A stretch of DNA of 49,073 bases from a virus, in the IMG/VR virus record IMGVR_UViG_3300044922_000436, positions 1 through 49,073 of that record; one strand, written 5' to 3'. The position numbers and the translations under genes are program-made. The notes below the pieces were generated by a model, which was given only the letters and a program-made list of their open reading frames with translations, searched no databases and had not been told where the DNA came from. Position 1 is the first letter of the stretch. Each line of letters starts with the position of its first letter. Shown piece after piece: positions 3,806 to 28,331 of this stretch.

Positions 3806-5871
3806 TGGCTGGACCTTGGGAGAAGTTTCAAGGCGTAACGCCTGCACCTACTACTCCACCCGACTCCGCTCCTCGCGGTCCTTGGGAGAAGTTTCAGCAG
3901 CAGGCTATTCCTCAGACGCCAAGAGAGAAAGCGAAAGCCTATCTTGACGCGCATCCAGATGCGCAGCCAGGCACGCTTTCCTCATTAGCCAATAAGGTAG
4001 GTCAAGGCTTCACATTCGGTTTCGCTGATGAGGCGGCAGCAGGTTTATCTGCAATTAAAGACACGATTAAGCATGGTGGAAGCCTGCGAGATAATTACGA
4101 CCTTGAGCATGCAATGCAGCAGGAGCTGCTTGACCGCGCTGGTAAAAAGACAGGCGCTGCTGGGATTGCAGCTGAAGTTGTTGGTGGGATTGGGTCGGGT
4201 TTGGGGGCTGCTAAAAACGGCGTGACCCTACTGAAAGCTGGGCAGGGCCTTCTTCCGACGATTGGTCGTGGTGCTGCAGAAGGTGCGATTTATGGGGGCC
4301 TGACAGGCGCGGGAACTGCTGACCAAGGGAACAGACTTGAGGGCGCTGCTAAAGGCGCGGGATTAGGTGCGGTTGGCGGCGCTGTTGCACCTGCCGTTGT
4401 TGAGCTTGGCTCTCGCGTTGGCAGCGGCGCACTTTCTGGCTATCGCGCTTGGAGAGACCCAAGAGGATTTGCTCAAGAGCAACTAGCAAAGACGGTCGAG
4501 CGTTCTGGTAGGACAGCTGCTGACCTTCAGAATGAATTGCTGCAAGCGCGGCAAGCTGGGCAAGGAAACTATGTTCTGGCTGACGCTTTAGGAGACTCTG
4601 GTCAGAAGCAACTTGCTGGAGCTGTCAAACTCCCTGGCTCTGCTAAGCAGACAGCTATTGATGAACTCGCTGCAAGAAACTCAGGAATGGGTCGTCAGGT
4701 TGGCGGTTTTGTTGATGAAGCCTTCAACACGCATGGAAATACAGCGCAAGAATATATTGACTTGATGGAAGCTGCGCGCAGTCGCGCAGGGGATGTTCGC
4801 TATGACGCGGCACGCGCCTCAGCTGGTCCTGTTGATTTAAACCGCACGCTCTCGACGCTTGAAGATATTCGAGACCCTGCAGGCGTCCTCAGCAATCCGA
4901 CAGCTGGTCAAAGCGTTGCTCCAGGTGGTGTTGAGCGTGCAGCTCAATTAATCGGGCGTGAAGGTGTTGGCCCAACAGACGCTGCTGATTTTAGCGTCTT
5001 ACTCGATACGAAACGCCAGATTGGGGACATCTCATCTGAAGCTCAGCGTGCTGGGCGCAATTATGAGGCAAGCCAGGTTGGTCGTATTAATAGCGCTCTT
5101 GATTCAGCTTTGTCTGACGCTTCTCCTGGTTATCGCCGCGCGAATGATACTTTCTCACGCATGTCGCGCCCAATTGAGGCTGTTGAAGAAGGGCAGCGTG
5201 CAGCGGTCAGAGGGCGCTCTGCTGACACAATCAACACCTTCAATCAGATGGAGCGTCCTGGTCAGCAAGGGTTTCGTGTTGGCTATGCTGACAAGTTGAA
5301 TGAAGCTCTTGGAGGCCCGACGGTTGGTCGTAAATTAAATGACATGCTGGTTGGTGACGCAGCTGATGAGATTGCTGCATTAGCAACGCCTGGCAAGGCC
5401 GACCTTTTAAATGAGCAGCTGCAGCGCGCAAAGACGATGGTTGGCACAGGCAATCAGGCGCTGGGTGGTTCACCTACTGCAGAGCTCTTGGGGCAACAGG
5501 CAGACCTTGAAACAACGCTGCCAGTTATGAGTCAAATTGCTCAAGGGAACCTATTGGGCGCTGCAAAGCAGTTTGCGTCGGCTCTTGGTTCTGGGGCGAT
5601 TGGCGACCAAGAAGCTGTCAGAAACAACCTTATTCCAATGCTGATGAGTAAGGCTGGAGGGCTCGACTTGAGCAGTCTCATGCAAGCTGTTCAAGCAAGT
5701 CAGAGAGCAAGACAGACTTTCTCCAATGACCTTGGTCGAGGCGCTGTCACTGGCATCCTTCCAGCAATCATGTCTGAGCTTGGTGGTCGTCAGCCTCCTT
5801 CCACTGTGAATGTGACGCCTGAGAGCCAAGAGGCTTTCATCAATCGCGCTCGCCTCTATGGGGGAAGATGA
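3805..5871 (+). CDS. Putative large ejection protein with two PWEKFQ repeats
   Basis: A 688-residue protein starting at ATG 3805 (TAATG overlap). An in-frame ATG at 3790 would lie inside the previous gene and is less likely. The N-terminus carries two copies of GPWEKFQ (about residues 3-9 and 25-31), a motif common at the start of phage injected or internal proteins. A long region with Gly/Ala-rich hydrophobic segments follows (about residues 115-220, possibly membrane-interacting), then a helical remainder. No transglycosylase or protease signature was found. Inference: the largest of the ejected proteins, possibly helping form the envelope channel. Confidence 0.6.
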   Translation: MAGPWEKFQGVTPAPTTPPDSAPRGPWEKFQQQAIPQTPREKAKAYLDAHPDAQPGTLSSLANKVGQGFTFGFADEAAAGLSAIKDTIKHGGSLRDNYDLEHAMQQELLDRAGKKTGAAGIAAEVVGGIGSGLGAAKNGVTLLKAGQGLLPTIGRGAAEGAIYGGLTGAGTADQGNRLEGAAKGAGLGAVGGAVAPAVVELGSRVGSGALSGYRAWRDPRGFAQEQLAKTVERSGRTAADLQNELLQARQAGQGNYVLADALGDSGQKQLAGAVKLPGSAKQTAIDELAARNSGMGRQVGGFVDEAFNTHGNTAQEYIDLMEAARSRAGDVRYDAARASAGPVDLNRTLSTLEDIRDPAGVLSNPTAGQSVAPGGVERAAQLIGREGVGPTDAADFSVLLDTKRQIGDISSEAQRAGRNYEASQVGRINSALDSALSDASPGYRRANDTFSRMSRPIEAVEEGQRAAVRGRSADTINTFNQMERPGQQGFRVGYADKLNEALGGPTVGRKLNDMLVGDAADEIAALATPGKADLLNEQLQRAKTMVGTGNQALGGSPTAELLGQQADLETTLPVMSQIAQGNLLGAAKQFASALGSGAIGDQEAVRNNLIPMLMSKAGGLDLSSLMQAVQASQRARQTFSNDLGRGAVTGILPAIMSELGGRQPPSTVNVTPESQEAFINRARLYGGR

Positions 5872-7825: not shown

Positions 7826-8664
7826 GCCAGAAAGAGTTCTTCGACGACATTAGACGCACAGTATTTGGCGGCTCAATGACAGCTGCTCAAGTTGCTGGTG
7901 TTACGAAGATTATTGAATATCGAGACACGCAATATCGCGGAGTCACGAATAATCAATTGGCTTATATCCTTGCGACAGCATTCCATGAGACCGCTAGAAA
8001 ATGCGCGCCATGCACTGAATATGGCTCTGCAGCTTATCTTAAATCGAAAAAGTATTTTCCTTATGTTGGCCGTGGCTTGGTGCAATTAACCTGGAAGGCG
8101 AACTATGAGCGATATGGAATTTCTAATCCTTCTGATGCTCTCACCTGGCCTACTGCCCTTCATGTTTGCTTCGACGGAATGGTGACAGGTAAATTCACAG
8201 GGAAGAAGCTCAGTGATTACATCTCTGGCTCAAGTGTTGATTACATTGGTGCTCGTCGCATTATTAACGGCACTGATAGGGCGTCACTTGTAGCAGGATA
8301 CGCAAAATCATTTCAAAGCGCATTGAAACTCTGGCAGCCCTCAGCAAAGCCAGTTGTGCGTCAGCAAAAAGAAAAAGGTTTCTTTGATAGCATTGGTGAT
8401 TTCTTTGGCCTTGGCGGCGAAGAAGAGGCAGCAACAAATGCTGCGCCAATGCCGCCGCCAGTTCCAGCAGTTTTGACAGGTGAAAAAGGATACATTTTAG
8501 CTGCAATTACAGCTGCTGTTGGCGCATTGGAATTGGTGCCATGGCAAGATGTCGTCGCCCACCCCGACACTGGCATGAGCCTTGTCATCACGGCGGTAGG
8601 AACTGCCGTGGCTCGGGCCGTCCTGCCTAAATGGATACAGTTTTTTGTGTTGAGGGGCGCATGA
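7822..8664 (+). CDS. GH19-like endolysin with hydrophobic C-terminus
   Basis: A 280-residue predicted muramidase/chitinase-fold endolysin. The N-terminal domain shows ATAFHETARK (candidate catalytic Glu56), then KKYFPYVGRGLVQLTW (about 76-91), the hallmark of GH19-like phage lysozymes. After a short Pro-rich linker, two hydrophobic stretches near residues 217-236 and 250-268 could anchor or export the enzyme, as in membrane-tethered endolysins. There is no classical signal peptide at the N-terminus. It overlaps its neighbours by ATGA. Expected role: degrade the cell wall at lysis. Confidence 0.8.
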   Translation: MSQKEFFDDIRRTVFGGSMTAAQVAGVTKIIEYRDTQYRGVTNNQLAYILATAFHETARKCAPCTEYGSAAYLKSKKYFPYVGRGLVQLTWKANYERYGISNPSDALTWPTALHVCFDGMVTGKFTGKKLSDYISGSSVDYIGARRIINGTDRASLVAGYAKSFQSALKLWQPSAKPVVRQQKEKGFFDSIGDFFGLGGEEEAATNAAPMPPPVPAVLTGEKGYILAAITAAVGALELVPWQDVVAHPDTGMSLVITAVGTAVARAVLPKWIQFFVLRGA

Positions 8665-9101
8665 ATAACCTAGCAGAAATTTTTCGCAACGCTATTCAAG
8701 CTCACCCCTTGATGCAGCATGTCCTCGACGCTGGCGCGCTTGGGCCTATGCCAACAAACATGATGCCTGCGCCACCGCGACCTGGGCCGTATGAGGGCGA
8801 TGGTTATCAGCGCTATAATAGCCCAGAGCGAAAATCGTCTGGTTTCTACGGTGAGGTTGGACAAGGCAAACACCCTGTGACTGAATTTAGTTTAGGCGGC
8901 GACGGTGGGGTCATTCAGCATCCTTCTATCTTTCAAGGAATGACAGGCAAACAATTACAGTCTGTTTTAGATGAAGCGAATGGTGGAAGACGTTTTCCGC
9001 AATCTATCGCAAATCAAGCAATGAATGCTGCGCAAGACCGCGTTGCCCAAGGTCTTTCGCCGTTTTGGAATGAAGCTCAAGATATGCGATTTTCTCGATG
9101 A
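8661..9101 (+). CDS. Hypothetical protein, lysis-region
   Basis: A 146-residue protein that I do not recognise. ATG 8661 overlaps the endolysin stop (ATGA) and is preferred over an in-frame start at 8631. The N-terminal 25 residues could form an amphipathic helix. A Pro-rich linker (MPAPPRPGP) follows, then a mixed domain containing FYGEVGQGKHP and LDEANGGRRFPQ. There is no signal peptide or membrane segment. It lies between the endolysin and a four-helix membrane protein, so a lysis-related or virion role is possible but unproven. Confidence 0.55.
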   Translation: MNNLAEIFRNAIQAHPLMQHVLDAGALGPMPTNMMPAPPRPGPYEGDGYQRYNSPERKSSGFYGEVGQGKHPVTEFSLGGDGGVIQHPSIFQGMTGKQLQSVLDEANGGRRFPQSIANQAMNAAQDRVAQGLSPFWNEAQDMRFSR

Positions 9102-9859
9102 ATAATTTTCAGTCATACAATTTCGCCGTCGCTATCGTAACGCTCTGCGTCGTGTCTTATTATTTTGGAACTTTAGCTCGGCGCTATATTCCCGAAAGCG
9201 CGGCAGGTCAGCAAGCAATCGAAGCTGTAAGATTTATCTCAGTTCCGCTTTTGCTTGTCTCGGCGGTCACGATGGCGATGATGCTTTTCACGGCAAGGCA
9301 ATCCTTCAACGCAAAGCAAGACCTTGTGAATGAAATCGCTGGCGCGTCTCTCCAGCTCGACCGAGTTTTGACTTATTACGGCGGCGATAAAGCGCTTCAC
9401 GCTCAAAGTGAGTTTAGGGAGTATCTGCAATATCTCCTGCAGGATAAAGACGCTATTTGGAAGCTCAAAGACCGCCAGGATGTTGAGCCATTTGCTAGGG
9501 ACATCCAGGCCCTGCCAATTCCAGCAAAAGATACGGGCGTTGCTGTATCCACGAAACGCTTTGCGCTCGATTTAATGGGTAAGATTTCACAAGATCGTTT
9601 TATGTTAGGCACGCTGAACAGCAAAATCATTTACCCGGCCACATACACGCTTTTAGCAATCTGGCTTTGTGTGGTATTTAGCTGCATGGGCGCAACGGCC
9701 CCTTTGTTTAACCCTTGGGTTTTTTGGTTTGGCTGCGTTGCGGCGGGTTGTGTTGGTTCAATCTGTTTCATCGTCGCGGAATATCAAACATCGACGGCGG
9801 GATTTATCACGCTCGACGCTTCACCCTTTGAAATGGTACTAAAGGAAATAGGAGAATAA
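9098..9859 (+). CDS. Four-helix membrane protein, DUF4239/bestrophin-like
   Basis: A 253-residue membrane protein with two transmembrane segments near the N-terminus (about 8-26 and 46-66). A soluble helical loop (about 70-180) starts with TARQSFNAKQDLVNEIAGA, and two further membrane segments lie at about 187-205 and 210-230. This 2+2 layout and the loop sequence resemble DUF4239 (bestrophin-like) proteins. No separate holin was found near the endolysin, so this protein may provide membrane permeabilisation; superinfection exclusion is an alternative. Both roles are inference. It overlaps the previous gene by ATGA. Confidence 0.6.
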   Translation: MNNFQSYNFAVAIVTLCVVSYYFGTLARRYIPESAAGQQAIEAVRFISVPLLLVSAVTMAMMLFTARQSFNAKQDLVNEIAGASLQLDRVLTYYGGDKALHAQSEFREYLQYLLQDKDAIWKLKDRQDVEPFARDIQALPIPAKDTGVAVSTKRFALDLMGKISQDRFMLGTLNSKIIYPATYTLLAIWLCVVFSCMGATAPLFNPWVFWFGCVAAGCVGSICFIVAEYQTSTAGFITLDASPFEMVLKEIGE

Positions 9860-9861
9860 CT

Positions 9862-10059
9862 ATGGCTGACCCTAAAACAGGCTCCGGCACGTCTGCGCCT
9901 AAAGTTTCCGCAACAAGCGACAGCTACGCAAACCTTCCTGGCGTTGAAGCGACTGTCACGCCTGGTAAAGGCTATGGGGCAGAAGCAACAATTCGAGACA
10001 CTGACAAGCGTAACGGTAAGGCCCGTTGTTTAATGAATATTCCAGCAGCGAGGGCTTAA
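9862..10059 (+). CDS. Small hypothetical protein
   Basis: A 65-residue protein, Gly/Ala/Thr-rich, without membrane segments or known motifs. AAAGGAAATAGGAG lies just upstream of ATG 9862 and gives a strong ribosome binding site. The next gene begins directly after its stop. Its position in a tightly spaced row of virion genes supports it being real; function unknown. Confidence 0.5.
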   Translation: MADPKTGSGTSAPKVSATSDSYANLPGVEATVTPGKGYGAEATIRDTDKRNGKARCLMNIPAARA

Positions 10060-10356
10060 ATGTCATTAGGAAATCTCATGTCGGGTGCGCTCGACATCTC
10101 ATCAATACTGCAAGGGCTTGCTGCTAGTGGCGGCAATGTCATCATTGTGAACGCTGGCGGCGGCGAAGGCCCTGAGCTTCCCGCGATGGAAGAGCCAGTG
10201 CCGCCAATTCCTGCACCTCCAATGGGCGCAGTTCCTCCAGGTCCTCCACCAGTTGGGCCTGATGTAGAAGAACCAGTTGAAGACGCTGCCGAAGGTGGCG
10301 TTGAAGAACCAGCTGACATGATGGGCGCTGCTAAAGCTGCCCTGCTAAAGAAATAA
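10060..10356 (+). CDS. Small Pro-rich hypothetical protein
   Basis: A 98-residue protein. It has a short hydrophobic N-terminal segment (about 12-32, ISSILQGLAASGGNVIIVNA) and a Pro/Glu-rich remainder with PPIPAPPMGAVPPGPPP. Composition resembles the low-complexity tails of the lysozyme and portal proteins in this genome. It starts immediately after the preceding stop codon. Probably a structural or accessory virion component; no specific family recognised. Confidence 0.5.
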   Translation: MSLGNLMSGALDISSILQGLAASGGNVIIVNAGGGEGPELPAMEEPVPPIPAPPMGAVPPGPPPVGPDVEEPVEDAAEGGVEEPADMMGAAKAALLKK

Positions 10357-10367
10357 GGAGATAGGTC

Positions 10368-11201
10368 ATGGGCAGTGGCGGCGGCGGTGGCGGCGGTGGC
10401 ATGCAAATGATGATGATGATGCTGATGATGCAGCAAATGGAGGAGCAGAAGCGTCAGCAAGAAGCTCAAATGCGCGCTCAGCAATTAGCAGCATCTCAGA
10501 AAGCTGAAAATCAAAACTATCAGCGTTATCAGGACCAGATTACAGCCCAGAATAAGAAGGTTGGTGGGCAATGGGATTTGTATAATGCTAATATGGATAA
10601 AATCTTAAAGCTCAATCCAGGCTATAACGCCAATAAGCGTTACACCTTTAACGGCTATACGGTTAATCCAGAATACAAGAAGTCGATGTCTCAGAGTGAG
10701 GCTGACAATAACACTGACTTGCTGAATAAGTGGTATTCAGACCTCGACCGTCAGTCGCTCGATGACTACAACATGGCCAAAAGCCAATATGACGCATCGA
10801 AGACCTGGCTTGCTGATGTTCAGGCACAGAAAGACGCAGAAGGTCGCGTCCTTGGCAATGCCCCTGCAGGCACATGGGGCGCAGGCGGCGGCATGGTCTC
10901 TGGCGGTGCTGGCGCTGATGCTGAGCAAGACCCTAGTGGCGGCGCTGCTGGCATGAACATTGGCTCTGGTGGCGCTAATCCAGACATCTACAATATCGCT
11001 GGTGGGCCATCCTCTGCAGGAGCGTCAAGCTCAGGCGGTTTGGCTGGCTCTAATGTCGGCATGGGCGGGGGCCTTTCTGGCTCAGGCTTCCTTGGCGACT
11101 CTGGAGGTCCTAGCAGTTCGCTTGCTGGCATGATGGGTCAAGCCATCGGCGGCGGCATGGGTCAGAACAACAAACAAGGTGCAGGAACTAGCATCTTTTA
11201 G
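10368..11201 (+). CDS. Gly- and Met-rich putative virion protein
   Basis: A 277-residue protein. It begins with a poly-Gly run and a Met/Gln-rich helix (about 13-50), continues as a helical domain with Tyr-rich segments (about 90-150), and ends in a long Gly/Ser-rich tail (about 165-270). The architecture mirrors the protein at 1366-2040, so both are candidate internal/ejection or minor tail proteins. AAGGAGATAGGTC supplies the ribosome binding site. It is the last gene of the plus-strand late unit; a terminator follows. Confidence 0.55.
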   Translation: MGSGGGGGGGGMQMMMMMLMMQQMEEQKRQQEAQMRAQQLAASQKAENQNYQRYQDQITAQNKKVGGQWDLYNANMDKILKLNPGYNANKRYTFNGYTVNPEYKKSMSQSEADNNTDLLNKWYSDLDRQSLDDYNMAKSQYDASKTWLADVQAQKDAEGRVLGNAPAGTWGAGGGMVSGGAGADAEQDPSGGAAGMNIGSGGANPDIYNIAGGPSSAGASSSGGLAGSNVGMGGGLSGSGFLGDSGGPSSSLAGMMGQAIGGGMGQNNKQGAGTSIF

Positions 11202-22847: not shown

Positions 22848-23048
22848 ATGAAGGAATATGCCCTTACTATCAATGAGAAAGACTGCACAGCTCTTTTCCG
22901 CAGCCTGCTCGAATACGACAAAATCTTACGCCTTTCTGCGATTCGTGACAGCGTCTTAGTATCAGCTGAGCTCTACCGCGTCAGGGACCTCCAGGAGCGC
23001 CTCAGCCTCATTCACTGGTATCCCAACAATGAAGAAGACGCAGCATGA
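22848..23048 (+). CDS. Small hypothetical early protein
   Basis: A 66-residue, slightly acidic helical protein (LVSAELYRVRDLQERLSLIHW) with no known motif. It is the first plus-strand early gene, behind GGAGTG, and overlaps the PP-loop gene (stop at 23048, next start 23045). Small first genes of early units often act on host machinery, but nothing in the sequence shows this. Confidence 0.55.
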   Translation: MKEYALTINEKDCTALFRSLLEYDKILRLSAIRDSVLVSAELYRVRDLQERLSLIHWYPNNEEDAA

Positions 23049-23842
23049 TGCGCGTTATCTCTTTGGGCGCTGGCGTCCAATCAACAACCCTCGCTTTAAT
23101 GGCTGCATATGGTGAGATAAGCCCAATGCCAGACTGCGCTATTTTTGCTGATACAGGTTGGGAGCCTGTAGCTGTATATGAGCATTTAAATAGATTACGT
23201 CAGGTATTGCCATTTCCTGTTCATATTGTTTCTGCTGGCAATATTAGAAATGACATTTTAGCTAACGCAAACTCAAATACTAAGCGTTGCGCTGCTATTC
23301 CGTGGTTTACTGAAAACGGCGGGATGGCACTTAGACAATGCACTTCTGAGTATAAAATAACACCTATTCTCAGGAAGCAAAGAGAGTTGCTCGGTTACAA
23401 AAAAGGCCAGCGAATACCCCCAAAGAGTATAGAAGTCTGGATCGGCATTTCGACTGACGAAATTCAACGCATGAAAGAGCCGCGCGATAAATGGCAAACT
23501 CATAGATGGCCGTTAATTGATGCAAGAATGAGCCGTAGAGATTGCATATCGTGGCTCAAATCACACGGCTGGAACGCCCCAAAATCTGCTTGCATAGGCT
23601 GCCCATATCACTCTGATGCGATGTGGCGAGACATGAAGGATAACGACCCTGTTTCGTGGGCAGATGCCATTGAAGTAGATACCGCAATCAGAAATAGGCA
23701 ATCTTCTAGCGGTCTTAAATATAAGCCTTTTATGCACCGGAGCCTCAAGCCATTAAACGAAGTTGACCTGTCAACACCGGTTGACCGCGGGCAAAAAGAG
23801 TTCGGCTTTATGCAAGAATGCGATGGAGTGTGCGGATTATGA
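23045..23842 (+). CDS. PP-loop ATPase, PAPS-reductase/DndC-like
   Basis: A 265-residue protein with VISLGAGVQSTTLALM at the N-terminus, a PP-loop nucleotide-binding site. IFADTGWEPVAVYEHL and a Cys-containing C-terminal part (SACIGCPYHSDAMW) follow. This is the phage version of the adenine nucleotide alpha-hydrolase family that includes PAPS reductase and DndC. Additional Cys residues (KRCAAIPW, LRQCTSEYK) could bind an Fe-S cluster. It might take part in sulfur or nucleobase modification of DNA or tRNA; the reaction cannot be told from sequence. Start at 23045 or 23048. Confidence 0.75.
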   Translation: MMRVISLGAGVQSTTLALMAAYGEISPMPDCAIFADTGWEPVAVYEHLNRLRQVLPFPVHIVSAGNIRNDILANANSNTKRCAAIPWFTENGGMALRQCTSEYKITPILRKQRELLGYKKGQRIPPKSIEVWIGISTDEIQRMKEPRDKWQTHRWPLIDARMSRRDCISWLKSHGWNAPKSACIGCPYHSDAMWRDMKDNDPVSWADAIEVDTAIRNRQSSSGLKYKPFMHRSLKPLNEVDLSTPVDRGQKEFGFMQECDGVCGL

Positions 23843-24120
23843 GCCACGATAAAGCATCAGCACTGCAGGTCACGCTCTTCCTGGAAGACGCGATGACAGA
23901 CCTCGCCACCAACATCAGAGACCATGAGCTCTGCCCTGAGTGCGCAACAGCAGCCTTCATTGCAACGCTTGTCAGGTCAATTGAGGTTGGCCTCATTAAA
24001 CAAGCTGAAGATTATTCAGACGAAGAGAAGCAGCGCCTTCCCTACTTCACAGAAGCTGCAGAATCATTCTTCTACAATCAACGAGACAATGACGATTTTG
24101 ATTGCATAGGGACTGCATAA
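23839..24120 (+). CDS. Small acidic hypothetical protein
   Basis: A 93-residue protein from ATG 23839 (ATGA overlap with the PP-loop gene; an earlier in-frame start at 23818 is less likely). It is acidic and helical, with a CPEC pair near residue 32 and an aromatic/acidic end (FFYNQRDNDDFDCIG). CPEC might bind metal with the later Cys. No family recognised. It lies directly before the replicase and is probably co-expressed with it. Confidence 0.5.
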   Translation: MSHDKASALQVTLFLEDAMTDLATNIRDHELCPECATAAFIATLVRSIEVGLIKQAEDYSDEEKQRLPYFTEAAESFFYNQRDNDDFDCIGTA

Positions 24121-24154
24121 AAGTCGATTTTAATTACTGACAATACCGACCAAA
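24121..24154 (+). promoter_or_regulatory. Leader element AAGTCG-N12-GACAAT-N-CCGACCAAA before the replicase
   Basis: AAGTCG (24121-24126), twelve bases, GACAAT (24139-24144), one base, CCGACCAAA (24146-24154), then 14 bases to ATG 24169. The same parts with the same spacing appear before the fibre operon at 29241-29274. CTGACA might be a -35 box but no clear -10 follows. Probably an operator or phage-specific control site. Confidence 0.5.
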
Positions 24155-24168
24155 CAAAGAGAATTATT

Positions 24169-27100
24169 ATGAACATACTAACATTCGACCTTGAGACATC
24201 AGGGTCAAAGCCAGAGTTTGCACTTCAATCATGGCGTGCGCCACACGACGCCCACATCACATCGCTTGTGTGGATGCACAACGGCACAACGCATGGCGGC
24301 CTTAATCCGACTAAAGATGATTTCATAAATATGCTCATCTATGCACAAGAGAACGACTGCACGATTGCAGGATGGAATGTGCAATTCGATGTTCAATGGC
24401 TCATTGCGTATGGACTTGAAGATGAAGTTTTCAAATGCAAATTCATTGATGGAATGCTGCTTTGGCGTCATCTCACTATTGAGCCAGAATATGAAGCAAC
24501 AGGCTCACGCAAGAAGTCATATGGCCTTAAGGCAGCGGTTGCTGAGTTCTTACCAGCATTTAGTGATTACGAATTAGACATCGACTTCCACGACCCATCG
24601 CCAGAAGCACGCGCTAAGCTACATGAATACAATATTAGCGATGTTAAATTCACTGAGCATCTCACGCTTAAATTCTACAATGAATTATCGAAGAAACAGC
24701 AAACAGCTGCACGCATTGAAGCCGAGTGCATTCCTCTCATAGCTGCTGCTAACTATCACGGCATGGTCGTTGATGTTCCTGCAGTCGAAGCGCTTTGCGC
24801 TAAGCTAGAACAAACTGCAGAACAAAAACTCGCAGAGCTCGCGCCTTATGGCGTCACAGAAGAAATCATTCGCTCACCTGCAAAGCTCTCTAAGCTCCTG
24901 TTCGATGATTGGGGCCTACCACCACAAGGAACAACAGACACAGGCGCACGTTCAACAGATAAGTCAGCACTCCATGAGCTCTCGCTCATTGACCCAAAAG
25001 CTAAAACGCTCAGGGAATATCGTGAAGCCCTCAACAATAAAACAAAGTTCGCGCAAACAATTCTTGAGAGCGCTGCATATAACGGCAACTCAACCACACA
25101 CCCTCAAGCAATTATATTCGGCACATATTCGGGCCGTCTTACATACGCGTCTAATCAAGGCCGTGGCAAAGAACTTAGACAGACAGGCTTTGCAATCCAT
25201 CAGATGAAACGCGGTGCTGAATATCGCGCTGCAATTAAAGCGCCTGATGGATTTACGATATTAGAATTTGACGCCGCAGGTCAGGAGCTGCGCTGGTTTG
25301 CCTGCGCCTCTAAAGACCCAACAATGCTCAAGCTCTGCATGCCTGGGCAAGACCCTCACGCTTACATGGCAAAACAAATTGGGCCTGATGTTGAGCGACA
25401 AATGGGCAAATTGTCTAACTTATCCTTACAGTATCGGACCTCTGCAAAGAAATTGCAGCAAGTCGCGCGCGTTCAATACAACATCCCTATGACGCTCAAG
25501 GAAGCTGAGCACATCCATGCAACATATCAAGACGCCTACTCTCAAGTGCCAGTATTCTGGAAATCACAAATTGCTAAGGTCAAGCACGCCAAATATGTTG
25601 AGACTTACGCTGGTCGACGTGTCAGCGTCGATGGTGATTGGAGTGGCAATCACGCATGGTCTATGGGCAGCACTGCCATCAACTATCGCATTCAAGGCAC
25701 AGGCGCAGACCAGAAATACCTCGCACTCGCAGTCATCAAGCCATATCTCAGACAGATAGGAGCACGCTTCGCATGGGACTTACATGACGGCATTTATCTT
25801 TATGTGCCTGATGACAAAGTCCAAGAGGCTGCAGAACAAATCAAATTATCGCTCGATAATCTTCCTTATAAATCAGCATGGGGCTTTGAGCCTCCAATCC
25901 CTCTCCCTTGGGATTGTAAGTCAGGCAAGTCATGGGGTGAATTAAAGGAATATAAATTTAACGAGGCTGACACCCCCGACCAAGAAGGTGCCAGCCTCTC
26001 AATCGCCCCTACTCTGCAGCCCGATGGAGTTCAAGGCCGTGAGCGCCTGGGTGATTTATCTACCTCAAATAAAGCATCACCCCAGCTAGTTCAAGTTGAC
26101 TTCCGTCCACAGCGCGAAGCTGCGCTCGAAGTCGCCCTTCAGTTTGCCAGTGCAGGGATTAAGACTTTCCCCTGCCAGGCAGACAAGAAGCCAGCCCCTG
26201 GCTTTATGAATTGGGAGAATGCTGCATCATCTGACCCTGACCAGCTGCGCCAATGGTTCCTCACAGACTACAGGGACACAGCTGCAATGGTCGGCATGCC
26301 TTGTGGCCCCAATAATCTCGTCGCAATCGACCCTGACAGACCAAAGCCTGAGAAGGGGAAGACAGCTGATGGCCTGGTCTTATTCAAGAACCTCGTCCAT
26401 GAGCTCAGCATCGACCTCACAGGCGTCCCAATCATTAAATCGCCATCTGGTGGTCAGCACTATATTTTCTCACAACCACAAGATGCACGCTTTGGCTGCG
26501 CCACTGGCTCACTTCCTGATAATGTCGATGTCAAAGGGGATGGTGGCTACCTCATAGCATCAGGCTCACGCAGAGCTGATGGCCTCGCCTATGAGCAAAT
26601 GCCTGGCACGCCATCACTCATTGAGTCATTCAAAACAAACACAATCCCAGCAATGCCGCTCCAGCTCAGGACAATCATCGGCACACGCAAAGAGCGCCTA
26701 TCAGCCCCTAACAATGAGACAGAACGCCTCGATTGGCATCTCTTAGCAGAAGCCCTCAGCCCTCAGAATATTCCTAACGATGCTACATTTGATTCACGCG
26801 ATGAATGGGTCTCAATGGCGCATGCGATTTATGGAGCATCATCAGGACAGGATTGGGGCCGTAAGGAATGGCTCGCATGGAATGCCAGACGCCAGCAGTC
26901 GCCCAATGAGCCAGAACGCGTATGGGACACGATTAAACCAGCAGAAGTCAGAGCTGGCTCAGGATACATCAAGGCGCAGCTCTTCACGCGCAATCGCACT
27001 GAGCTCCTAGAACGCATCGCAAATGCTGAAGCTGGCAATCTCTTCACCAAGGTCGTCGGAGATGAGGGTCAGAGTGATAGCCCAAAGCTCGATGATTTAA

Positions 27101-28209
27101 TTAAAGGCCCTAGCCCATTCAAACGCATTAACGCTTGGGATATGCCTCCTAGACAATTTGTCTATAAGAAGCATTACATCAGGAAGTTCATCTCAGCATC
27201 CATCGCGCCTGGAGGCGTTGGCAAATCAACAGTCGCAATTGCTGAAGCTGTCGCAATGGCCACAGGTAAGGACATCCTTGGTCATGCAGTCACTGAGCCT
27301 CTCAAGGTCTGGTATTGGAATGGCGAAGACCCATTCGATGAGCTGCAGCGCAGGTTCCTTGCTGTTATCCAGCATTTTAACCTGACCAATGAGGACATCG
27401 AGCTCCTTGAGGAAAACCTGTTCTTCGACTCAGGGCGTAATCTTGAAATCAAGATAGCCTTCCAAGAGAAGAACGGCACCAAAATAGCAGCGCCTGTCGC
27501 TAACAAGCTCAAGCAGTGGATTGAGGAGAATGAGATTGATGTCGTCATCATCGACCCATTCGTCAGCAGCCACTCAGTCTCTGAGAATGACAATAATGCA
27601 ATCGATGTCGTCGCTAAGGCATGGGCTAAGATTGCAGATGTCACCAATTGCGCAATCGACCTTGTCCACCACGTCAGAAAGACGAATGGCCAAGAGGCCA
27701 CAGTCGAGGATGCACGCGGCGCTTCTGCCCTCCTAGCAGCAGTCAGGTCAGCACGCGTCTTTAATGCTATGAGCGCTGATGAAGCCGCACGCTCAGGCGT
27801 CCATAACCAAAAGCTCTATTTCAAAGAGGACAATGGTAAGGCCAACCTAGCACCAGCAGCTGCAGCAGGATGGTATAAGATTAGCGGCGTTGACCTGCCA
27901 AATGGCGATAGCGTCGCAACTGTCAATGTCTGGCAGTGGCCAAACATCCACGACCAGGTCACAGATGAGGACCTGGTCGAAATTCAGAGACGCTGCAAAG
28001 CTGATGAGCCAAGCGAAAGCAGCCAAGCAGCTGATTGGGTCGGACATGTCGTAGCAGATGTCATGGGGCTCAATGCAGGTGACAAATCGGACAAAGCACG
28101 CATCAAAGAGCTTCTGAAGGTATGGCTGAAGGAAGGAAATTTATGCGTGAAAACGGCATGGAATGCTCGCCAAGGGAAGCCAAAAAAGGTTATAAGCAGT
28201 CATACGTAA
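24169..28209 (+). CDS. Fused replicase: 3'-5' exonuclease + family A DNA polymerase + PrimPol + RecA-fold helicase
   Basis: A 1346-residue single chain. Exonuclease (about 1-175): FDLET (Asp7, Glu9), WNVQFD (Asp74), YNISD (Tyr154, Asp158), DEDDy type. Family A polymerase (about 180-595): motif A DAAGQELR (Asp368), O-helix RQMGKLSNLSLQY with Arg410, Lys414, Leu418 (E. coli Phe762 position) and Tyr422, motif C LHDG (His539, Asp540, normally HDE). Linker about 596-645. PrimPol (about 646-830): DPD (Asp721/Asp723), SPSGGQHY (His764), VDVKGDGGY (Asp787). PriCT-like domain about 853-940. Helicase (about 985-1260): Walker A APGGVGKST (Lys1019), Walker B VVIIDP (Asp1129), HHVRKT. Priming, unwinding and synthesis are joined in one polypeptide. 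Confidence 0.93.
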   Translation: MNILTFDLETSGSKPEFALQSWRAPHDAHITSLVWMHNGTTHGGLNPTKDDFINMLIYAQENDCTIAGWNVQFDVQWLIAYGLEDEVFKCKFIDGMLLWRHLTIEPEYEATGSRKKSYGLKAAVAEFLPAFSDYELDIDFHDPSPEARAKLHEYNISDVKFTEHLTLKFYNELSKKQQTAARIEAECIPLIAAANYHGMVVDVPAVEALCAKLEQTAEQKLAELAPYGVTEEIIRSPAKLSKLLFDDWGLPPQGTTDTGARSTDKSALHELSLIDPKAKTLREYREALNNKTKFAQTILESAAYNGNSTTHPQAIIFGTYSGRLTYASNQGRGKELRQTGFAIHQMKRGAEYRAAIKAPDGFTILEFDAAGQELRWFACASKDPTMLKLCMPGQDPHAYMAKQIGPDVERQMGKLSNLSLQYRTSAKKLQQVARVQYNIPMTLKEAEHIHATYQDAYSQVPVFWKSQIAKVKHAKYVETYAGRRVSVDGDWSGNHAWSMGSTAINYRIQGTGADQKYLALAVIKPYLRQIGARFAWDLHDGIYLYVPDDKVQEAAEQIKLSLDNLPYKSAWGFEPPIPLPWDCKSGKSWGELKEYKFNEADTPDQEGASLSIAPTLQPDGVQGRERLGDLSTSNKASPQLVQVDFRPQREAALEVALQFASAGIKTFPCQADKKPAPGFMNWENAASSDPDQLRQWFLTDYRDTAAMVGMPCGPNNLVAIDPDRPKPEKGKTADGLVLFKNLVHELSIDLTGVPIIKSPSGGQHYIFSQPQDARFGCATGSLPDNVDVKGDGGYLIASGSRRADGLAYEQMPGTPSLIESFKTNTIPAMPLQLRTIIGTRKERLSAPNNETERLDWHLLAEALSPQNIPNDATFDSRDEWVSMAHAIYGASSGQDWGRKEWLAWNARRQQSPNEPERVWDTIKPAEVRAGSGYIKAQLFTRNRTELLERIANAEAGNLFTKVVGDEGQSDSPKLDDLIKGPSPFKRINAWDMPPRQFVYKKHYIRKFISASIAPGGVGKSTVAIAEAVAMATGKDILGHAVTEPLKVWYWNGEDPFDELQRRFLAVIQHFNLTNEDIELLEENLFFDSGRNLEIKIAFQEKNGTKIAAPVANKLKQWIEENEIDVVIIDPFVSSHSVSENDNNAIDVVAKAWAKIADVTNCAIDLVHHVRKTNGQEATVEDARGASALLAAVRSARVFNAMSADEAARSGVHNQKLYFKEDNGKANLAPAAAAGWYKISGVDLPNGDSVATVNVWQWPNIHDQVTDEDLVEIQRRCKADEPSESSQAADWVGHVVADVMGLNAGDKSDKARIKELLKVWLKEGNLCVKTAWNARQGKPKKVISSHT

Positions 28210-28215
28210 GTCATT

Positions 28216-28318
28216 GATCCTCACTTCCTCACTTCAGGTGAGGTGAAGTGAGGATCTAACCTCCTCACCTCACCTTATATAGGTGAGGAGGTAGGTGAGG
28301 TGAGAACTCAAGGTGAGG
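28216..28318. repeat. GGTGAGG/CCTCACC repeat and palindrome cluster, candidate origin or operator
   Basis: Nine copies of GGTGAGG-type heptamers in about 100 bases, on both strands. They form nested hairpins: GATCCTCACTTC (28216-28227) with GAAGTGAGGATC (28245-28256); CCTCCTCACC (28260-28269) with GGTGAGGAGG (28282-28291); CTCACCTCACC (28264-28274) with GGTGAGGTGAG (28294-28304). TATATA lies in the middle loop. It directly follows the replicase stop. Iteron-like origin, replicase binding site or transcription control are possible. Confidence 0.75.
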
Positions 28319-28331
28319 AAAACTGCAGGAA

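Follow-up and report, generated by a model that had tools for sequence, protein, structure and literature searches.

Domain architecture of the replicase

The 49,073-nucleotide viral sequence IMGVR_UViG_3300044922_000436, the whole of which is referred to here as the window, encodes a protein (the replicase) that combines a DEDDy exonuclease, a family A DNA polymerase (PolA), an archaeo-eukaryotic primase (AEP) and a RecA-fold helicase in one chain, and an iteron-like repeat array lies directly behind its gene (Table 1). Translation of 24169-28209 (+) gave a single open frame of 1346 codons with no stop, as the initial annotation had stated. The four domains named there were all recovered by Pfam searches and motif inspection, the Pfam positions agree with the proposed order of PolA first, AEP next and helicase last, and the open reading frame with these four domains is confirmed as real.

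DNA_pol_A (PF00476), Prim-Pol (PF09250) and AAA_25 (PF13481) matched residues 215-591, 656-813 and 983-1173 with E values of 7e-44, 3e-24 and 2e-40, respectively. The PriCT-like domain also annotated after the AEP domain was less certain: PriCT_2 (PF08707) matched residues 873-931 weakly (E 1.4e-3, 19.4 bits vs a cut-off of 22), while the match was above the cut-off in the homologue L001 described below (E 9e-9). The exonuclease had no Pfam match of its own; phrog_17, a profile of 1445 positions with PolA at 670-1246, spanned residues 1-605.

None of the catalytic motifs looked for was missing from the 1346-residue protein. The exonuclease carries D7-x-E9, D74 and Y154-x3-D158, and D7, E9, D74 and D158 were invariant across 20 relatives. 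Polymerase motifs A, B and C are D368, R410-K414-L418-Y422 and H539-D540, respectively. Judged by the spacing of R410, K414, L418 and Y422, L418 would be the equivalent of position 762 in E. coli Pol I, making this a predicted Leu762-type enzyme. PolAs of that type are slower and more accurate, are linked with the phage life cycle and are seen among replicative phage PolAs (PMC6302109). The AEP motifs are D721-x-D723 (DPD), SGGQH at 760-764 (SGGxH, ending in H764) and D787, and the helicase contains the Walker A sequence GGVGKST and Walker B residue D1129. A profile of the AEP-helicase half matched pRN1 ORF904 structures (E 1e-9) as well as RepA by sequence.

The AlphaFold model of residues 1-617 had a pLDDT of 87 and a pTM of 0.86, with a tail disordered after residue 600, and Foldseek matched the exonuclease-PolA model to whole Klenow-type enzymes (TM 0.74-0.76; Klenow fragment 1kfs, TM 0.74). 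For residues 600-1346 the pLDDT was 72 and the pTM 0.45, the latter probably due to linkers; the pLDDT of the linker was below 50. The best Foldseek match of the helicase part was RSF1010 RepA (1nlf, TMt 0.80). The final 80 residues, in which the initial annotation had placed no domain, adopt a winged-helix pattern of three helices plus a beta hairpin in the model, and models of ArsR-type helix-turn-helix (HTH) proteins weakly matched the corresponding region of L001.

Table 1. Coordinates of the replicase, its domains and the adjacent repeat array in the window
Feature	Coordinates	Strand	Evidence
Full replicase, exonuclease-PolA-PrimPol-PriCT-RepA helicase-winged helix	24169..28209	+	Open frame, Pfam, fused homologue L001 at 50% identity
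3'-5' exonuclease, residues ~1-175	24169..24693	+	DEDDy motifs, phrog_17, AlphaFold model vs Klenow
Family A DNA polymerase, residues ~176-598	24694..25962	+	PF00476, model, motifs A/B/C
Linker, residues ~599-644, predicted disordered	25963..26100	+	24% identity to L001, pLDDT <50
AEP (Prim-Pol), residues ~645-840	26101..26688	+	PF09250, ORF904 profile match
PriCT_2-like helical region, residues ~841-945	26689..27003	+	PF08707 weak in window, 9e-9 in L001
RepA/AAA_25 RecA-fold helicase, residues ~986-1265	27124..27963	+	PF13481, Foldseek match to RSF1010 RepA
Winged-helix-like C-terminal domain, residues ~1266-1346, candidate iteron binder	27964..28206	+	Model secondary structure; L001 HTH matches
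Iteron-like array, 7 copies of AGGTGAG, candidate replication origin	28216..28321	both	Repeat counts, folding, shuffles

A fused homologue and the unfused relatives

A homologue with the same domain order was sought and found. L001, a contig from another metagenome, contains a 1339-codon frame with identical domain order and 50% identity to the replicase. Identity was 58% in the exonuclease, 66% in the polymerase, 24% in the linker, 59% in AEP, 42% in PriCT, 29% in the RecA fold and 18% at the C-terminus. Because PolA (58-66%) and AEP are so much better conserved than the linker, both enzymes appear to be under selection while the linker is free. The same values mark PolA and AEP together as the conserved core, with a helicase end that has diverged or been exchanged. 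Separate translation from an internal start was rejected, as the linker of the window protein contains no ATG, GTG or TTG codon and the first methionine lies inside AEP, without a ribosome site.

L001 was the only further fusion found when viral contigs were scanned with the whole protein, the fused pair, PolA, AEP and helicase as queries and genome contigs, phages and plasmids were searched; the contig scans use short peptide patterns, which distant fusions can escape. A search of 50,697 phage records did not recover the full architecture, no match there reaching 80% coverage of the replicase. PolA-homologous frames of about 50 further records had no AEP or helicase matches, and in the PolA tree the window and L001 are sisters (SH-aLRT 89, node not starred) nested inside unfused lineages. 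The simplest reading of this tree would be a single derived fusion, and a rare one. Separate genes in relatives, which the initial annotation had regarded as a sign against the fusion, are indeed the state of all other relatives, and L001 carries the same fusion independently. Because an independent contig carries it, the unfused relatives point to a derived fusion, not to an artefact.

A separate DUF927 protein of about 930-1035 residues was encoded in 31 of the 32 PolA-relative records scanned, the sole exception being L001, and no DUF927 was found in the window. The DUF927 proteins of two of these records (L007 and L008) also gave a weak LigD-type AEP match, under the curated cut-off. Prim-Pol was present in three of 50 PolA-relative records, namely L001 and two distant records in which its gene stands alone. 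On the basis of these two distributions, a Prim-Pol-RepA primase-helicase appears to have been acquired by the fused lineage in exchange for an AEP-DUF927 one, and we infer a non-orthologous displacement together with the fusion. Many PolA relatives contain inserts of about 300 residues (L004 at 7953-10811; L024, L027, L029-L034, L053, L056, L064, L068 and L075), and the insert of L004 has intein-like ends (CVTGDVEV...VTGNT) ahead of the RLTY motif.

For the helicase half, 429 loci were found and 80 kept. These relatives are free helicases or AEP-helicases, none of the 80 being fused to PolA, and PolA was absent from 28 of 30 records carrying this helicase family. In L087 a short PolA gene without an exonuclease (3870-5164) lies directly ahead of a PrimPol-RepA gene, which is the same order, unfused and with a different PolA. 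Inspection of L005 (7179-9194) revealed this helicase domain (39% identity) joined to a zinc-finger/Toprim-like primase, not AEP, and a Microvirga plasmid combines the same helicase with a Toprim primase. Such replication modules are freely exchanged.

Iteron-like array downstream of the replicase gene

The array behind the replicase gene was absent from the initial annotation. Its AGGTGAG copies, which lie on both strands, are arranged as overlapping inverted repeats directly after the stop codon and fold into two long hairpins (z -5.9 as single-stranded DNA). The repeat count in the 250 nt after the stop was reached by 0 of 500 dinucleotide shuffles, and the array is the most repetitive spot of the window. 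GC skew in the replicase gene itself is negative (-0.05, and -0.23 at third positions; region 23045-28209), which sets it apart from almost every other gene on the plus strand.

In 30 of the 51 non-redundant relatives of the helicase, no other part of the locus was as repetitive as the 250 nt after the helicase stop; with 67-248 background windows for each locus, fewer than one such case would be expected by chance. The repeats vary by phage (GTGGAGCA, GTGGCGCA, GTGACGCA, GTGGTGC, GTGCGGC and others) around a GTGNNG core. A frequent layout has an inverted first copy about 5 nt past the stop, followed by direct ones near +28, +38 and +48. Examples follow positions 7155 of L135, 7152 of L140, 7107 of L139, 10122 of L083, 7128 of L107 and 1534 of L156. 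The strict consensus GTGNNGSA occurred 238 times after 82 stop codons, a set that includes related loci, vs 23.6 expected. These GTGNNG arrays are candidate replication origins, and would predict origins for dozens of phages.

The layout of the array in the window makes it a candidate iteron origin recognised by the adjacently encoded protein. For SaPI Rep and SCCmec Cch2, which are initiator helicases, the origins lie directly 3' of the helicase gene and their iterons are recognised by the encoded protein (PMC7581432). Similarly, pRN1 requires an origin stem-loop of 100 nt that lies immediately 3' of orf904 (PMC4234260). Together, the replicase gene and the DNA 3' of it resemble a self-contained initiator-replicase-origin module. 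The two strong hairpins formed by the repeats could also belong to a transcription terminator or to a regulatory site bound by a protein; this is unlikely, since no T run follows either hairpin, the motif occurs seven times, and most relatives have similar arrays of other sequence after the stop.

Proposed replication mechanism and alternatives

The gene and array probably serve a temperate tailed phage as a self-contained module for replication. The C-terminal winged helix would bind the iterons directly behind the gene, and the RepA-type domain, on the strength of its modelled fold, would assemble there as a hexamer that opens and unwinds the DNA. The AEP domain, in which the motifs were seen, and its PriCT region would prime the exposed strand, and the tethered family A domain, with both motifs and fold in place, would receive the primers, extend them and proofread. 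Priming, unwinding and synthesis may thereby be coupled at fixed stoichiometry, as the initial annotation had supposed. If the helicase is hexameric like RepA, each assembly would hold six polymerases and six primases, and fixed stoichiometry would mean 1:1:1 per chain, not one of each per fork. The fusion would have occurred once, in a PolA lineage otherwise using a separate AEP-DUF927 primase-helicase, when a PrimPol-RepA gene replaced the AEP-DUF927 protein and joined PolA through a flexible 45-residue linker.

Several points weigh against this mechanism. GTGNNGSA has no copy in the window, whose core GTGAGG is a variant, and the cumulative GC-skew minimum lies at 26.8 kb, about 1.4 kb off the array, which is weak support for an origin. 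Only two fused sequences were obtained, both metagenomic. As the helicase and C-terminus of L001 appear diverged or exchanged, origin recognition need not be shared between them, and since L001 is an 18.9 kb fragment, its missing DUF927 may reflect incompleteness. Host polymerase III may also contribute to replication.

A more far-reaching version, in which the gene and its 3' array make up a complete replicon whose single polypeptide does everything from recognising and opening the origin to priming, unwinding, extension and proofreading, is put forward tentatively and is rather less probable than otherwise. If it held, the cloned segment 24169-28330 would replicate autonomously and need at most single-stranded DNA-binding protein, ligase and topoisomerase from the host.

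It is improbable, though conceivable, that a protease cleaves the chain or that its domains act apart, which would make it in function a PolA and an independent PrimPol-helicase. Disorder and low conservation of the linker speak for this reading, as does L087, where PolA immediately precedes the AEP-helicase gene. The cultured phages Alachuavirus Xp15 and Acinetobacter phage HHU4 likewise have two adjacent genes for a PolA homologue (29-30%) and a PrimPol-helicase, although, unlike in the replicase, the primase comes first and the helicase is of the DUF5906 type (from a profile search of Xp15). Primase-dead and polymerase-deleted mutants of GP55, the protein of lactococcal phage 1706, complement in trans; however, deletion of its polymerase domain impairs the helicase, which indicates coupling in a comparable protein (PMC12205980). 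The fusion has, moreover, been kept between two proteins just 50% identical.

It is still less probable that initiation and the bulk of synthesis fall to the PrimPol-helicase half, with PolA active in repair or recombination and retained by chance. The frequent absence of PolA beside this helicase family does indicate that PrimPol-RepA modules replicate elements without it. Nevertheless, the polymerase is the most conserved region between the two fused proteins and, like replicative phage PolAs (PMC6302109), retains an intact exonuclease and Leu762-type motif B. An assembly chimera or frameshift joining two genes, which the unfused state of nearly all PolA relatives might suggest, is ruled out by L001, where, in a second metagenome and at 50% identity, the two halves are joined in the same register.

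Comparison with known systems

GP55 is a helicase-AEP-PolB protein for which four activities in one chain were shown biochemically in 2025 and called unprecedented by its authors (PMC12205980). Like GP55, the replicase is a single phage protein of about 1300 residues with helicase, AEP, polymerase and 3'-5' exonuclease, in a phage with little other replication machinery. GP55, however, has an N-terminal helicase, a C-terminal family B polymerase and an aHD in place of PriCT, whereas the replicase begins with a DEDDy exonuclease and family A polymerase and ends with a RepA helicase and winged helix. GP55 is its closest functional analogue, but the replicase does not belong to the GP55 group, having been put together independently from unrelated parts in the opposite order. 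The initial annotation knew of no described phage protein with the PolA-AEP-helicase order, and we found none, while the four-activity concept was already in print. Because GP55 had been described and assayed, the novelty lies in the family A version and the order, not in the concept. Exonuclease-PolA combined with AEP-RepA was not found in the open-licence papers searched, and a description elsewhere is possible.

Apicoplast PREX, with the order primase-helicase-exonuclease-PolA and a TOPRIM-type primase, also unites PolA, exonuclease, primase and helicase in one chain, whereas the replicase has PolA first and an AEP primase. Residues 645-1346 of the replicase are of the same kind as pRN1 ORF904, phage AEP-RepA proteins and the primase of Rhizobium phage RHph_X2_26 (31.7% identity over residues 654-1315), but a family A polymerase is attached to none of the relatives examined. 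AEP-RepA fusions are known in phages (PMC5862659). Pyrovirus 3173-type PolA is, like the replicase, a viral PolA fused to a helicase, but that helicase is an N-terminal DUF927 domain, and Prim-Pol was not reported (PMC10423840). In SCCmec an A-family polymerase is encoded in the same operon as the helicase; unlike here, the SaPI and SCCmec proteins are separate, and CCPol primes via MP, not an AEP domain (PMC7581432).

The replicase would represent a second, independently evolved way to pack a replisome core into one chain, in which family A takes the place of family B. Since an A-family enzyme with proofreading, a primase, a helicase and a candidate origin all fit within 4.2 kb, the question of a minimal replisome becomes directly testable, and primer-free isothermal DNA amplification is a conceivable use of the protein. 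The relatives would also show how such a fusion arose: a PrimPol-RepA module took the place of an entire AEP-DUF927 primase-helicase and joined PolA.

Phage context and host

The window comprises most of a temperate tailed phage. It encodes an integrase, a repressor-like protein, a RuvC-like resolvase, a DNA methyltransferase, an exonuclease, a DNA helicase, a terminase, a portal-like protein, a major head protein, tail proteins and an endolysin. The nearest helicase relatives are from alphaproteobacterial plasmids and a Rhizobium phage, which suggests an alphaproteobacterial host. A gene for a phosphoadenosine phosphosulfate (PAPS) reductase-like protein is located just upstream of the replicase gene, at 23045-23842.

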